A stretch of DNA of 64,000 nucleotides. It comes from Kribbella amoyensis. Lineage in GTDB: Bacteria > Actinomycetota > Actinomycetes > Propionibacteriales > Kribbellaceae. Positions 31,448 to 39,527 of this stretch are shown in pieces. The stretch covers positions 1,922,001-1,986,000 of the forward strand of contig NZ_VIVK01000001.1 of NCBI RefSeq assembly GCF_007828865.1, given 5' to 3'. The notes beneath the pieces were generated by a model that worked only from the letters and a program-made list of their open reading frames with translations, was not told where the DNA came from and made no database searches. Each line of letters begins with the position of its first letter. Within the stretch, counting starts at the first letter, position 1. A program made the position numbers and the translations under genes.

Positions 31448-31593
31448 CCCATCATCGGAGGAGGGAGTGCGCTGGAGGGGGTCCGTCGATCGCGGCGGAA
31501 CCGTGTACTGGCTGTAACCCGGACGGGGGTTTACCGCCGATCTACTTTGCGCACTGGGATGGCACCGAAAAGCCTCTCGAAGGGAGCAGCATC

Positions 31594-32112
31594 ATGGGCT
31601 TGAACGACGACGACATGACCACTTCGTCCGGTGATGGCGAGGGTCTGGCGGACGGGGGCGCGACGCCCGGCGCGACCGACGGAGGCGCTGACGGTGGTGC
31701 TGACGGGGGCGCCGGCGGGTCCGGCCAGGAAGGTCCTGCGGACGGTGGGGCCGCTGCCGGGGTGAGTGACGGCGGCGCGGACGGTGGAGCGGACAGCGGT
31801 GCGGGCGGCGAGGGTCCGGCCGACGGCGGGGCGACGCCCGGCGCGACCGATGGCGGCGCCGACGGCGGCGCGGAGGGCCCCGCGGACGGCGGTGCGTCGC
31901 CCGGTGTGAGTGACGGCGGCGCCGATGGCGGCGCCGGCGGAGGCGGCTCGGAAGGGCCGGCGGACGGCGGCGCCTCGCCTGGTGTCAGCGATGGCGGCGC
32001 TGACGGAGGAGCCGACGGTGGTGCGGAAGGACCGGCCGACGGTGGCGCGAATCCACGCGGTACCGATGGCGGGGCCGACGGCGGTGCCGGCGGGAACTCC
32101 GGAAGTTGGTGA
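31594..32112 (+). CDS. Asp-Gly-Gly-Ala repeat protein, candidate substrate of the adjacent oxygenase
   Basis: A 172-residue protein with a short N-terminus (MGLNDDDMTTSSGDGEG) and then six imperfect repeats of about 21-29 residues. Each starts E-G-P-A-D-G-G-A, passes a PG(V/A)(S/T)-like step and ends in one to three D-G-G-A units. I count 20 DGGA tetrads. There is no Lys and no Cys, one Arg, and one aromatic residue, the C-terminal Trp. It has no signal peptide or membrane helix. AAGGGAG precedes the ATG. Its stop overlaps the GTG of the JmjC-type oxygenase gene. The periodic Asp residues look like a multi-site modification substrate; I know no named family. Confidence 0.8.
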   Translation: MGLNDDDMTTSSGDGEGLADGGATPGATDGGADGGADGGAGGSGQEGPADGGAAAGVSDGGADGGADSGAGGEGPADGGATPGATDGGADGGAEGPADGGASPGVSDGGADGGAGGGGSEGPADGGASPGVSDGGADGGADGGAEGPADGGANPRGTDGGADGGAGGNSGSW

Positions 32113-33353
32113 CCCCGGTGCCGGAGACCGGGCCGCCGCCGGACCGGCGCCCGGCTCTCCGGCGCTGCGTCGCGGGGGACGCTGACGAGTTCGCGCGCAA
32201 CTACTGGGGGTTGCGCGCGCTGTTGTCCCCTGCGGCCGAGCTGGCCGGTCCCTTCGACGACCTGTTCACGCTGGACGACGCGGACGAGCTCCTGTCGCGC
32301 CGCGGCCTGCGGACGCCGTTCCTGCGCATCGCGAAGAACGGTGCGGTCGTCGGCGACAACCAGTTCACGGGGCCGGGCGGTGTTGGAGCGGAGATCGGTG
32401 ACCAGGTCCGCGACGACAAGGTCGCCGCACTGTTCGCCGACGGGCACACAGTGGTACTGCAGGCTCTCCACCGCACCTGGCCGCCGCTGGTCGACTTCGC
32501 GACGCAACTGTCGACGGATGCGGGCCACCCGGTCCAGATCAACGCGTACATCACTCCTGCGCAGTCGCAGGGCTTCTCCTCGCACTACGACGTGCACGAC
32601 GTGTTCGTCCTGCAGGTAGCGGGCGAGAAGCACTGGACGGTGCACGAACCGGTGCACGTCGACCCACTGCGTAACCAGCCGTGGACAGACCACTCCGATG
32701 CGGTCGCCGAGGCTGCCCGCGATCAGCAGCCCGTCGTGGATGCCGTACTACGGCCCGGGGATGCGCTGTACGTACCGCGCGGCTTCCTGCATTCGGCGAG
32801 GGCGCTGGGTGGGGTGAGTGCCCATCTGACGGTCGGGCTGCACACGATGACGCGGTACCTGCTCGTCCAGGAGCTGGCTGCGCTTGCGGCAGAGCACGGC
32901 GAGCTTCGGACCGCGTTGCCGCTCGGCTTCGATCCAGGTGATCCGTCGCAGGTGGCGGGTGAGCTGGAGCAGGTGGCGAAGCTCTTCACCGACTACCTCG
33001 ACACGGCGACCCCGGAGAAGCTGGCGAGCCGCCTCCGTCGCCGTACGTGGTCCGGCAACCGTCCCGCTCCACTTGCACCGCTTGCGCACGCAGCTGCTCT
33101 GGCGGACCTGGCTGTTGGTACGCCGGTGCGCCTGCGGGCTGGTTTGCGGGTACACCTGGTGCCGGGGGATCCGGTGCGGCTGCAGTTGTCGGATCGGACG
33201 ATCACTTTTCCGTCGTCGACCGGGGCTGCTGTGGCGAGGGCGGTGTCGGGGGAACCGTTCGAGGTGGGTTCACTGCCGTCGCTGGATGAGTCTGATCAGG
33301 TCGTGTTGGTGCGGCGCTTGATGAAGGAAGGCGTCCTGGTCGCGGGGCTGTGA
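32109..33353 (+). CDS. JmjC/cupin-fold Fe(II)/2-oxoglutarate oxygenase (ribosomal-oxygenase-like)
   Basis: A 414-residue cupin-superfamily protein related to YcfD/NO66/MINA53-type hydroxylases. The iron ligands are His159 and Asp161 in SSHYDVHDVFVLQV and His228 in GDALYVPRGFLHSA. QINAYITPAQSQGFSSHYD and GEKHWTVHEP are the conserved surrounding strands. A helical dimerisation-type region and winged-helix-like C-terminus (LVRRLMKEGVLV) follow. It starts with GTG overlapping the repeat-protein stop by 4 nt (a TTG one codon earlier is possible). Such enzymes hydroxylate protein side chains; coupling points to the DGGA protein as substrate. Confidence 0.88.
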   Translation: MTPVPETGPPPDRRPALRRCVAGDADEFARNYWGLRALLSPAAELAGPFDDLFTLDDADELLSRRGLRTPFLRIAKNGAVVGDNQFTGPGGVGAEIGDQVRDDKVAALFADGHTVVLQALHRTWPPLVDFATQLSTDAGHPVQINAYITPAQSQGFSSHYDVHDVFVLQVAGEKHWTVHEPVHVDPLRNQPWTDHSDAVAEAARDQQPVVDAVLRPGDALYVPRGFLHSARALGGVSAHLTVGLHTMTRYLLVQELAALAAEHGELRTALPLGFDPGDPSQVAGELEQVAKLFTDYLDTATPEKLASRLRRRTWSGNRPAPLAPLAHAAALADLAVGTPVRLRAGLRVHLVPGDPVRLQLSDRTITFPSSTGAAVARAVSGEPFEVGSLPSLDESDQVVLVRRLMKEGVLVAGL

Positions 33354-33419
33354 CCGGGCCTGCTCGTGGGGTGGACGGGCGGCGAGGGGTTGTTGGAGGC
33401 GGGCGTAGGGTCGGGTGGT

Positions 33420-34454
33420 GTGGACCGCGGATCCGGTGATGCTCTGACGGCCGGCTTCGGGTCTTCCGACGCGGGCGATCCCGCGAGGTACCGACCGGAG
33501 ACGGGCTGCGCCGCCTCCGCCGAACGCCGCGGCGATCTGCTGCTCGCCTCCGCCCCACCCGCCGAACGCTGGCTCCTCATCGAAACCAATCGGCCCTGGC
33601 CGCGCGTCGCCCTGGAAGCTCTGCAGTACTCGTCGGCTCTCGCGGACGACCAACCCGTCACCGCGCAGGGCGTACCCACGGACGGTGGTCGTCCGCGGGT
33701 ACGGGCCGCTGGTCTGGGGGCCGAGGTCGCACGGTTGTGTGCGGAGCTGCGGTGCCGGCCGGTGCTGATCCGCCGGCATGGCCGCACGGACCGAGACCTT
33801 CCACGCCGTTGGGCCCTGATCGACAGCCGGCCGGGCAGCGAATCCATCCGCTGGGGCGAACTCCCCACCGACGAGCACGTCCTGAAGGTCCTCGCCGGCA
33901 CCGACCCCGGGACCCCGAGCACCGAACCGATCTACCTCGTCTGCACCCACGGCCGCCACGACGCGTGCTGCGCCGTCCGCGGCCGCCCGGTCGCCTCCGC
34001 CCTCGCCGCCGCGTACCCGGAGCGCACCTGGGAAAGCAGCCACGTAGGCGGCGACCGCTTCGCCCCCAACGTGGTGCTGCTCCCCCACAGCCTCTACTAC
34101 GGCCACGTCACGCCACCCGGCGCCGTCGCCATCGCGAACGCGTACGACAAAGGCGAGGTGGTCCCGAAGTCCTTCCGTGGCTCGGGCGCCCTGCCACCCC
34201 ACGTCCAAGCAGCCCAGCACTTCGCCCGCGCCGCGGGTCACCCCACGACGCTCGATTCCCTCCGCCCGTCGGCCGTCGTCCCGCTGGCCGGCAGCCGCTG
34301 GTCGATCAAGCTCACCACAGACATGACAGAGCTCGAGGTCGAGGTCGAATCCCACCAGATCACCATCGACGGCCAGATGACCTGCGCGGCCCAACCCCCA
34401 GGCGTAGTCCGTCAGTTCACCCTCAACTCGCCTGTTCCCACACCCAAAAATTAG
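33420..34454 (+). CDS. Sucrase/ferredoxin-like family protein (thioredoxin-like [2Fe-2S] fold)
   Basis: A 344-residue protein. The family's cysteine motif is VCTHGRHDACCAVRGRPVA, followed by WESSHVGGDRFAPNVVLLP and YYGHVTP. Family members bind [2Fe-2S] and are of uncertain role. It begins with GTG 33420 (TAGGGT lies 8 nt upstream) or further upstream at 33366. It is 66 nt after the oxygenase and in the same direction, so it could supply electrons to it. Confidence 0.82.
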   Translation: MDRGSGDALTAGFGSSDAGDPARYRPETGCAASAERRGDLLLASAPPAERWLLIETNRPWPRVALEALQYSSALADDQPVTAQGVPTDGGRPRVRAAGLGAEVARLCAELRCRPVLIRRHGRTDRDLPRRWALIDSRPGSESIRWGELPTDEHVLKVLAGTDPGTPSTEPIYLVCTHGRHDACCAVRGRPVASALAAAYPERTWESSHVGGDRFAPNVVLLPHSLYYGHVTPPGAVAIANAYDKGEVVPKSFRGSGALPPHVQAAQHFARAAGHPTTLDSLRPSAVVPLAGSRWSIKLTTDMTELEVEVESHQITIDGQMTCAAQPPGVVRQFTLNSPVPTPKN

Positions 34455-38311: not shown

Positions 38312-39527
38312 CATTTGGGGGGGTCGTTTGGGGGCTGGGCCGGGCGGTCTTCCGGTGCGTTGGTAGTCCTTGGTGGGGTCGAGGACCAGTTCGCGCAGGA
38401 GTTCGCCGGTCGCGGCGTCGACGACCCTGATTTGAAGGTCGTGGATGAGGAGCAGGACGTGGGTTCGGGCGTGGGTTCGCCCGATGCCGATGTGGTGCAG
38501 CCGACCGTTGACCCGCAGTGTGACCACGCCGGTGTCGTCGATACGGTCGGTGCGGACCCGGTGGTGGACCTCACCGGTCCGGTCCGTGGTCGGGCCGGCT
38601 TTCGGGCGGGCGTGGTAGGCGGCCGCGGGGGTGGCGCGGTGGGGCAGTGACCGGTGCGGGCGGCGCTGGTTGTACTCCTCGGTGAAGGCGTCGAGCAGCA
38701 TCTGGAGTGCGGCGATCGTGGTCGGCTGGTCCGGCTGGGCGCGCAGCCATTTCTTCATCGTCTGCTGGAACCGCTCCACCTTCCCGCAGGTGGTGGGGTG
38801 GTTCGGGCGGGAGTTCTTCTGCACCACGTTCAGGTTGCGTAGTTCGGTCTCGAGGCCGTTGCGGCCGCCTTTCCCGCCCGCCAGCCTCGTGGTGTAGACC
38901 ATGCCGTTGTCGGTGAGCGTGGAGGCCGGGGATCCCGTACTGGGCAACGGTTTCGCAGAAGCTGCTCAGCACGATCGGGCCGGTGATCCGCGGATGCGCG
39001 GTCACGGAGAGGGCGTAGCGGGAGTGGTCGTCCAGCCAGCTGATGACCTCCACATCGGTGCCGGCACGCCCGTCGGGGCGGGTGAGGCGGTAGTGGGTGA
39101 AGTCGGACTGCCAGCACTCGTTCGGCTGCTCGGCGGCGAACCGCAGATACGACGACCGCGGCCGCTTGCCCGGATCCGGCACCACGGCGCCCGCCCGGAC
39201 CAGGATCCGGTGAATTGTGGCCCGCGACAGCCTCACCTGATGGTGGTGCAGTAGGTGCCAGCCGATCGTGTCCGCCCCGGCGTCCAGGCCCTGCTCGGTT
39301 AGTTGCTTGCGCAGCCGCAGTACCAGCTCCACCGTCTCGACCGCAGTGGCTCGCGGTGAGGTCTTCGGCCGCCGTGACCGTGGCTCGAACTCCGCCTCGC
39401 CCTCCGACTCGTAACGGGCCCTCAGCTTGTAGACCCACGCCCGGTGTACGCCGTACCGCCGGGCCACCTCAGAGGCCGATTGACCCTCCACAACCAACGC
39501 GGTGATAACCAACCGAGCCTTCGACAT
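38311..39527 (-). pseudogene. IS481-family transposase, frameshifted
   Basis: MSKARLVITALVVEGQSASEVARRYG starts an HTH domain; the DDE core follows with QSDFTHYRL and WLDDHSRYALSV, then LTDNGMVYTTRL and TTCGKVERFQQTMKKWLRAQP. Between GIP and STLTDNG the frame changes: four C (38928-38931 on plus as GGGG) occur where three are needed. Near the 3' end a run of seven G (38317-38323) removes the expected stop PPK-TGA, so the frame reads out across the IR and antisense through tRNA-Ser. Two homopolymer expansions in one gene. Confidence 0.85.

Follow-up and report, generated by a model that had tools for sequence, protein, structure and literature searches.

A conserved cassette of an aspartate-rich repeat protein, a ROX-like JmjC oxygenase and a Suc_Fer protein in Kribbella and other Actinomycetota: a candidate RiPP-like modification system

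Oxygenases with a JmjC fold act on a variety of proteins. FIH hydroxylates Asn and Asp residues in repeat proteins, and the ribosomal oxygenases (ROX) NO66, MINA53 and YcfD, all of the family PF08007, have in common a JmjC domain, a helical region and a C-terminal winged helix. JmjC hydroxylases are also already known from pathways to ribosomally synthesized and post-translationally modified peptides (RiPPs), as are RiPP recognition elements (RREs) fused to JmjC domains. In biphenomycin-type clusters, BipG/BpmG and PbsQ represent JmjC or related cupin 2-oxoglutarate/Fe(II) enzymes that act on a ribosomal precursor; according to the available portions of the sources, the JmjC enzyme BipG hydroxylates the gamma carbon of ornithine in a RiPP precursor (PMC12707348) and PbsQ adds 16 Da (PMC12257519). 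JmjC-fused RRE-like domains have been reported from fish and algae, with their closest bacterial homologues in RiPP-like contexts, and the available part of that report contains no description of an Asp-repeat cassette (PMC12710340). Here we analyse a 64,000-nucleotide stretch of the Kribbella amoyensis genome (the window), in which a gene for a DGGA-repeat protein, a gene for a JmjC oxygenase and a gene for a Suc_Fer-like iron-sulfur protein lie together at positions 31594-34454. In biphenomycin-type pathways the hydroxylase is one of several enzymes, together with a multinuclear non-heme iron oxidase (MNIO), a B12 radical S-adenosylmethionine (SAM) enzyme and an arginase, and the core is short; in contrast, the cassette described here has a long, acidic, multi-repeat precursor, and the JmjC enzyme is its sole conserved candidate modifier besides the Suc_Fer protein. 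We propose, with a probability of roughly 60%, that this is a RiPP-like cassette in which leader-guided JmjC catalysis would hydroxylate the repeats at multiple sites, most likely at Asp, to give a metal-binding product, with the Suc_Fer protein in an auxiliary role.

All three genes are on the forward (+) strand. The first open reading frame (ORF; 31594..32112), preceded by an AAGGGAG ribosome-binding site (31580..31586, +), encodes a precursor-like protein of 172 residues with 20 DGGA tetrads and six EG[PL]ADGGA units (five EGPADGGA and one EGLADGGA), lacking Lys and Cys and ending in Trp. Its TGA stop codon (32110-32112) overlaps the GTG start (32109-32111) of the gene for the 414-residue oxygenase (32109..33353), the overlap amounting to 4 nucleotides; the ORF list also offers a TTG start 3 nucleotides upstream of this GTG. 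The gene for the Suc_Fer-like protein of the thioredoxin-like ferredoxin type (33420..34454, 344 residues) starts with a GTG 66 nucleotides past the JmjC stop, an alternative GTG being listed at 33366. This layout, which a preliminary description of the window had proposed, was confirmed, as was the presence of the iron ligands H159, D161 and H228. The oxygenase matches the JmjC_2 profile PF08007 with an E-value of 2.4e-27, and the third protein matches PF06999 (78.9 bits, cut-off 34.9, E 6.7e-22). None of the three proteins matched an NCBIfam model, and the repeat protein found no match in Pfam either. More generally, no credible Pfam or NCBIfam match was obtained for any of eight repeat proteins tested; the Pfam search of seven precursors returned a single chance match below the cut-off (PF08017, E 0.024).

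Within the family of the window, here represented by 38 genomes of one genus (named relatives are nearly all Kribbella), a JmjC match is present in 38 of 38 genomes, and a DGGA-repeat ORF lies upstream of it in 37. The number of DGGA tetrads per ORF ranges from 7 to 25 in the 36 Kribbella ORFs measured, window included; one further ORF escaped the pattern count, and its repeats were confirmed by reading. A Suc_Fer gene follows the JmjC gene in 35 of the 38 loci, the exceptions being a locus without the gene despite 3 kb of room, a locus at a contig edge and a locus with a remnant. As the repeat ORF is low in complexity and GC-rich, it might be a spurious frame beside a real gene. This is very improbable and, as far as sequence allows, refuted. 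The 20 tetrads of the window ORF are encoded by 17 distinct nucleotide spellings, which indicates that the protein sequence has been maintained and that the array is not a recent DNA repeat. Moreover, the start, the ribosome site and the unit sequence are conserved across Kribbella, the precursor N-termini are alike between families, and the adjacency to the oxygenase gene extends across Actinomycetota.

This wider conservation was read from two samples. The first comprised 396 Actinomycetota genomes, 58 of which had an oxygenase match, the window's own included; one JmjC locus was read in each of the remaining 57, giving six with weak paralogues only, two at contig ends and 49 assessable loci. 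The second, a class-level sample of 296 genomes searched with a different query, gave 98 matches, of which 60 previously unread loci were taken. Strong and weak oxygenases were separated at 125 bits, a limit set after the first sample had been viewed and left unchanged for the second. An upstream ORF on the same strand was scored as Asp-rich when its last 60 residues contained at least 12% Asp. Two contig-end loci per sample and seven second copies within genomes were excluded from the counts. An Asp-rich ORF precedes the oxygenase gene in 48 of 49 assessable loci of the first sample and in 45 of 45 assessable strong new loci of the second, i.e. in 93 of 94 loci outside the window's family, and the 94th, from the first sample, reaches 11.7% Asp with ADGTDQGV..GPRDA repeats. 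Lack of the repeat ORF beside the oxygenase in relatives had been named beforehand as the outcome that would count against the pairing; this outcome did not occur. Weak paralogues were dropped as a negative control: none of six passes the Asp rule in the first sample, and 7 of 13 assessable ones pass it in the second. Since they provide no clean control, 318 other ORFs from the long loci and the window were used as background, ten of which pass.

Downstream of the JmjC gene, Suc_Fer was found in 41 of 49 loci in the first sample and 37 of 45 in the second (78 of 94 together), which upholds the iron-sulfur gene as a member of the cassette. Wherever found, it has the orientation of the JmjC gene, and in the second sample it lies within 1 kb of it; one locus was scored as lacking it although there was no downstream room. 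Because the same gene order recurs across Actinomycetota, the layout is not a matter of chance. Altogether, the oxygenase group occurs in 52 of the 396 Actinomycetota genomes, made up of 49 assessable ones, two with contig-end loci and that of the window; in the class sample the figure is 60 of 296 genomes (46 new, 13 read before and the window's own). Among the named organisms with the repeat ORF are Pseudonocardia, Saccharopolyspora, Actinoplanes, Symbioplanes and Mycobacterium gordonae. The expected co-occurrence of DGGA-repeat ORFs with the oxygenase was also found: a DGGA precursor query matched ten of the 396 genomes, all of them with the oxygenase, and not one of the 338 that lack it. 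At the DNA level, a strict pattern encoding DGGADGG gave no match even in the window's own genome because codon use varies.

There are two types of precursors. Those with EGPADGGA..HDGGADG units accompany one oxygenase subclade, and those with mostly DADGTD or DGDA/DGDATD units accompany the other; in a tree of 67 oxygenases the two subclades form two branches with support of 96/98 each. Judging from their sequences, the shared feature of the repeat types is Asp, mostly followed by Gly or Ala. In 34 representative cores, picked among precursors in which the leader motif was found, Asp is on average the commonest residue (28%), with Gly or Ala as the next residue in 79% of cases. The composition initially described for the window protein can be generalized only in part: the DGGA tetrads are one of at least two repeat types; Cys is indeed absent from the last 60 residues in 94 of 94 precursors, but the absence of Lys (80 of 94) and of aromatic residues (83 of 94) is not strict; and 32 of 37 Kribbella ORFs end in Trp, which was not seen at the ends of the precursors inspected from other genera. 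At the N-terminus, the window protein has a leader-like segment, MGLNDDDMTTSS (31594..31629, +). Outside the Kribbella family a strict motif of this kind, [LIVF]x?D[DEQ][DE]?[IM]x[TS] (L-x-D-[DE]-[DE]-[IM]-x-T-like), is present in 53 of 94 precursors, and in the remaining ones it is replaced by variants (LDDSDIT, LDDDTTT) or missing. One precursor with two copies of another unit, EDDENLDAPGEHSQDTGDE, has kept a leader-like start (ITDNDITS). At two loci from one genus the upstream ORFs end in GADL.EDQ..G.GPT.EPGA and no Suc_Fer gene was seen; they represent a diverged variant of the cassette.

By sequence and by fold (mean predicted local distance difference test score, pLDDT, of the model 74.4), the nearest relatives of the oxygenase are NO66, MINA53 and YcfD. 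The initial assignment to the FIH type was not borne out, as FIH shares the JmjC fold but gives a much weaker match (E 8e-9) than the ROX enzymes (E 4e-24), which rank far above it. An alignment of 127 oxygenases, four of which were dropped as too short, revealed that the iron ligands H159-x-D161 (32583..32591, +) and H228 (32790..32792, +) as well as K174, N145 and Y147 are invariant in all 99 cassette and 24 paralogue rows. The cassette enzymes differ from the actinobacterial paralogues in group-specific residues at three positions: position 68 holds Arg in 97 of 99 cassette rows and Glu in 16 of 24 paralogues, position 140 His in 93 of 99 versus Glu in 11 of 24, and position 343 Arg in 95 of 99, the paralogues having mostly Val or Leu there.

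Compared with the ribosomal oxygenases, the cassette adds an adjacent acidic repeat protein as a candidate substrate and a Suc_Fer gene. Given the shared fold, the oxygenase could nevertheless act on a target such as a ribosomal protein, with the repeat protein as an unmodified acidic partner, for instance an inhibitor, a chaperone or a metal buffer; polyanionic proteins can serve as mimics or buffers. We regard this as quite unlikely. The number and sequence of the repeat units vary freely while the density of D-[GA] is mostly kept, as expected for a multi-site substrate. Several weak paralogues likewise stand beside short precursor-like ORFs. In addition, in one Kribbella genome (G002) the JmjC and Suc_Fer genes are reduced to short remnants at the same site. 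The precursor ORF is still open there, with intact N- and C-termini and 28 Asp residues, yet a single DGGA tetrad is left. This single case fits the expectation for a substrate that no longer has its enzyme.

The C-terminal region of the oxygenase provides a candidate for substrate recognition. Residues 329-414 (33093..33350, +), which include the conserved R343, R363, R402 and R403, are predicted to form a winged-helix, RRE-like domain (AlphaFold2 (AF2), pLDDT 93.6 over these 86 residues). The 13 best rows of a VIA-align comparison are winged helices of MINA53 and NO66 (Z 12.3 to 9.2). Among the matches listed, 21 of the 37 lower rows (Z 5.3 to 7.6) are chains that we take, in part, to belong to RiPP pathways: MccB (Z 7.6), the PbtF RRE (6.8), TigE, PqqD (6.5), ThcOx, MibB, TbiB1, TruD and related heterocyclases, the McbB complex and TbtB. 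With the PqqD-like RREs, among which MccB, PbtF, TigE, PqqD, MibB and TbiB1 score 6-7.6, the domain shares a winged helix in which strands precede helices. According to DSSP, the strands of the model (11-14, 21-23, 28-31 and 36-39) are followed by two helices (41-50 and 66-78), whereas the PqqD-like RRE fold has three strands and three helices. The domain is closer to the ROX winged helices, and five C-terminal domains searched by sequence gave no match to PqqD (PF05402) at E 10. Arg at position 363 is found in 72 of 99 cassette rows and in none of the 11 rows without a leader motif, which were picked by eye. The basic residues of this domain may therefore be in contact with the acidic leader.

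Based on these data, the following sequence of events can be envisaged. The N-terminus of the repeat protein (MGLNDDDMTT...) would dock on the RRE-like C-terminal winged helix of the oxygenase, which would then, with Fe(II), O2 and 2-oxoglutarate, proceed along the flexible repeat array and hydroxylate one side chain per unit, the Asp of D-[GA] being the most likely site. This would yield a soluble polyanionic protein dense in hydroxy-aspartate and best suited to binding metal ions; this metal binding is our guess from the chemistry of a hydroxy-aspartyl polymer. The [2Fe-2S] Suc_Fer protein could assist, perhaps by re-reducing the iron. That the repeat protein is the likely substrate had been suggested from the window and gains weight from the Asp-rich neighbour at 93 of 94 loci, the DGGA loss beside the broken enzyme and the recognition-type C-terminal domain. 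Leader-guided hydroxylation of Asp at multiple sites would be the simplest account. Relatives within PF08007 act as hydroxylases of protein side chains, the JmjC enzyme BipG hydroxylates ornithine, and Asp is the probable target since, besides Gly and Ala, it is the residue abundant in both repeat types. His, the target in an NO66-like reaction, was rejected, for many units in Kribbella have T, S or Q in place of the H of GHDGG. Among the neighbours of 47 loci, no conserved radical SAM, transporter, protease or secretion gene was found; the survey covered ORFs of at least 100 residues in blastp clusters spanning at least four loci, some stretches were short, and distant genes could serve. A modified cytoplasmic protein is thus likelier than an exported small peptide.

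It is also conceivable, but unlikely, that the repeat protein is modified in another way, by cross-linking, desaturation, hydroxylation of another residue or conversion to an aspartimide-prone product. Dominant in the cores are Asp-Ala and Asp-Gly, the latter readily forming aspartimide, and the title of a 2025 paper suggests that 2-oxoglutarate enzymes are also able to cyclise RiPPs. On the other hand, we saw no partner residue common to the two repeat types, Cys being absent from all 94 tails and aromatic residues and Lys being few, and the solved PF08007 relatives found bear hydroxylase names, NO66 and MINA53 being named as demethylases as well.

Several observations weigh against leader-guided hydroxylation of the repeats. 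Of the 13 weak paralogues in the second sample, seven pass the Asp rule and eight stand beside a short precursor-like ORF, so that they offer no clean contrast to the cassette. The strict leader motif is limited to 53 of the 94 precursors, with one DGGA-repeat group lacking it. The upstream ORFs of the two diverged loci mentioned above (2 of 94) are acidic but non-repetitive. At another locus the JmjC gene is split into two frames beside an intact precursor, which may reflect a recent break or a sequencing error. The RRE-like domain is at the same time the usual winged helix of ribosomal oxygenases, and Z-scores of 6 to 8 are middling; among the 37 lower rows listed, seven are of the YcfD type and six are GdmN carbamoyltransferases, none of these being RiPP proteins, and the last three comprise two BmdC and one other. 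The loss of R363 was possibly a single event, as the four of the 11 no-leader rows present in the oxygenase tree form one clade, and Arg is retained in these 11 rows at R402 (8) and R403 (6). In the same tree, two paralogues on long branches join the DGGA side, one of them a Kribbella paralogue without a repeat ORF (190 bits, 38% identity), and a third lies inside the non-DGGA side, which makes three changes of the paralogue label. Finally, the Suc_Fer gene is missing from the stretch seen in 8 of 49 and 8 of 45 loci, and for this reason we assign it an auxiliary role.

The Suc_Fer proteins resemble Aim32/Apd1 in belonging to PF06999 (8 of 8 relatives tested), in a paired Cys motif and in a downstream SHxGG motif. 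According to the available part of the source, Aim32 binds a [2Fe-2S] cluster through CX8C and HX3H motifs (PMC8482512). In the window protein, the Cys motif is CTHGRHDACC (CX7CC; 33942..33971, +), which retains the CX8C spacing to the second Cys. Of 44 distinct motif pairs, 43 contain CX7CC; the G002 remnant is the exception. Where Aim32 has HX3H, the window protein has SHVGGD (34038..34055, +), and the cassette proteins show HX3D or, in four distinct motifs, HX3C. Cluster ligation may hence differ from that in Aim32, with Asp or Cys as a possible fourth ligand. A search by sequence for a solved relative gave nothing meaningful, the two matches having E-values of 0.18 and 0.86.

The weak JmjC paralogues have small neighbours of their own. 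Beside 8 of the 13 assessable ones in the second sample there is a short conserved ORF ending in EVTSRD[VI]TAG.-D-[SN]-D-G-T-D-[SG]-SSDFI, and six of these eight pass the Asp rule; for the seventh paralogue that passes it, the upstream Asp-rich ORF is part of a larger protein. The SSDFI-ending ORF is apparently a second class of JmjC precursors with a single acidic core. Three paralogues of two families are preceded by small ORFs ending in ..GRSDGND, ..GGRSDGND or ..GRSDLNDNAHH, which possibly constitute another precursor class.

Among the best-ranked matches of larger searches, the open-licence literature contained no report of a JmjC gene with a DGGA- or Asp-repeat protein next to it, and no account of the pair or the trio, in agreement with the earlier view that the trio is undescribed. 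The cassette apparently represents a hitherto undescribed type of modified protein in bacteria, for which a class of its own is conceivable if the modification can be shown. In its boldest form, which we put forward tentatively and would not bet on, a JmjC enzyme of Actinomycetota with a leader-binding domain converts a ribosomally made Asp-Gly/Asp-Ala repeat protein into a poly(beta-hydroxyaspartyl) protein, a cytoplasmic, O2-dependent metal-binding polymer encoded in about 1/8 to 1/5 of the sampled genomes and forming its own RiPP class. Should the repeats prove to be hydroxylated at many sites, a common type of protein modification, with enzyme and substrate both defined, would have been overlooked so far; ROX-like JmjC enzymes would gain a family of bacterial substrates, and programmable polymers of hydroxy-aspartate would have a source.

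Upstream of the repeat gene, a CTTTGCGCAC box (31545..31554, +) is kept among Kribbella, and in an alignment of 37 Kribbella upstream regions its TTTGCGCAC part is almost invariant; the box is a possible promoter or operator. The ribosome-binding site is likewise conserved in the Kribbella alignment. The cassette is flanked upstream by a gene for a CobC-like aminotransferase and downstream by a gene on the opposite strand that, according to a profile search, encodes a hexapeptide-repeat protein. Further downstream, the minus strand of the window carries an ORF (38571-39527) that we take to be integrase/transposase-like.

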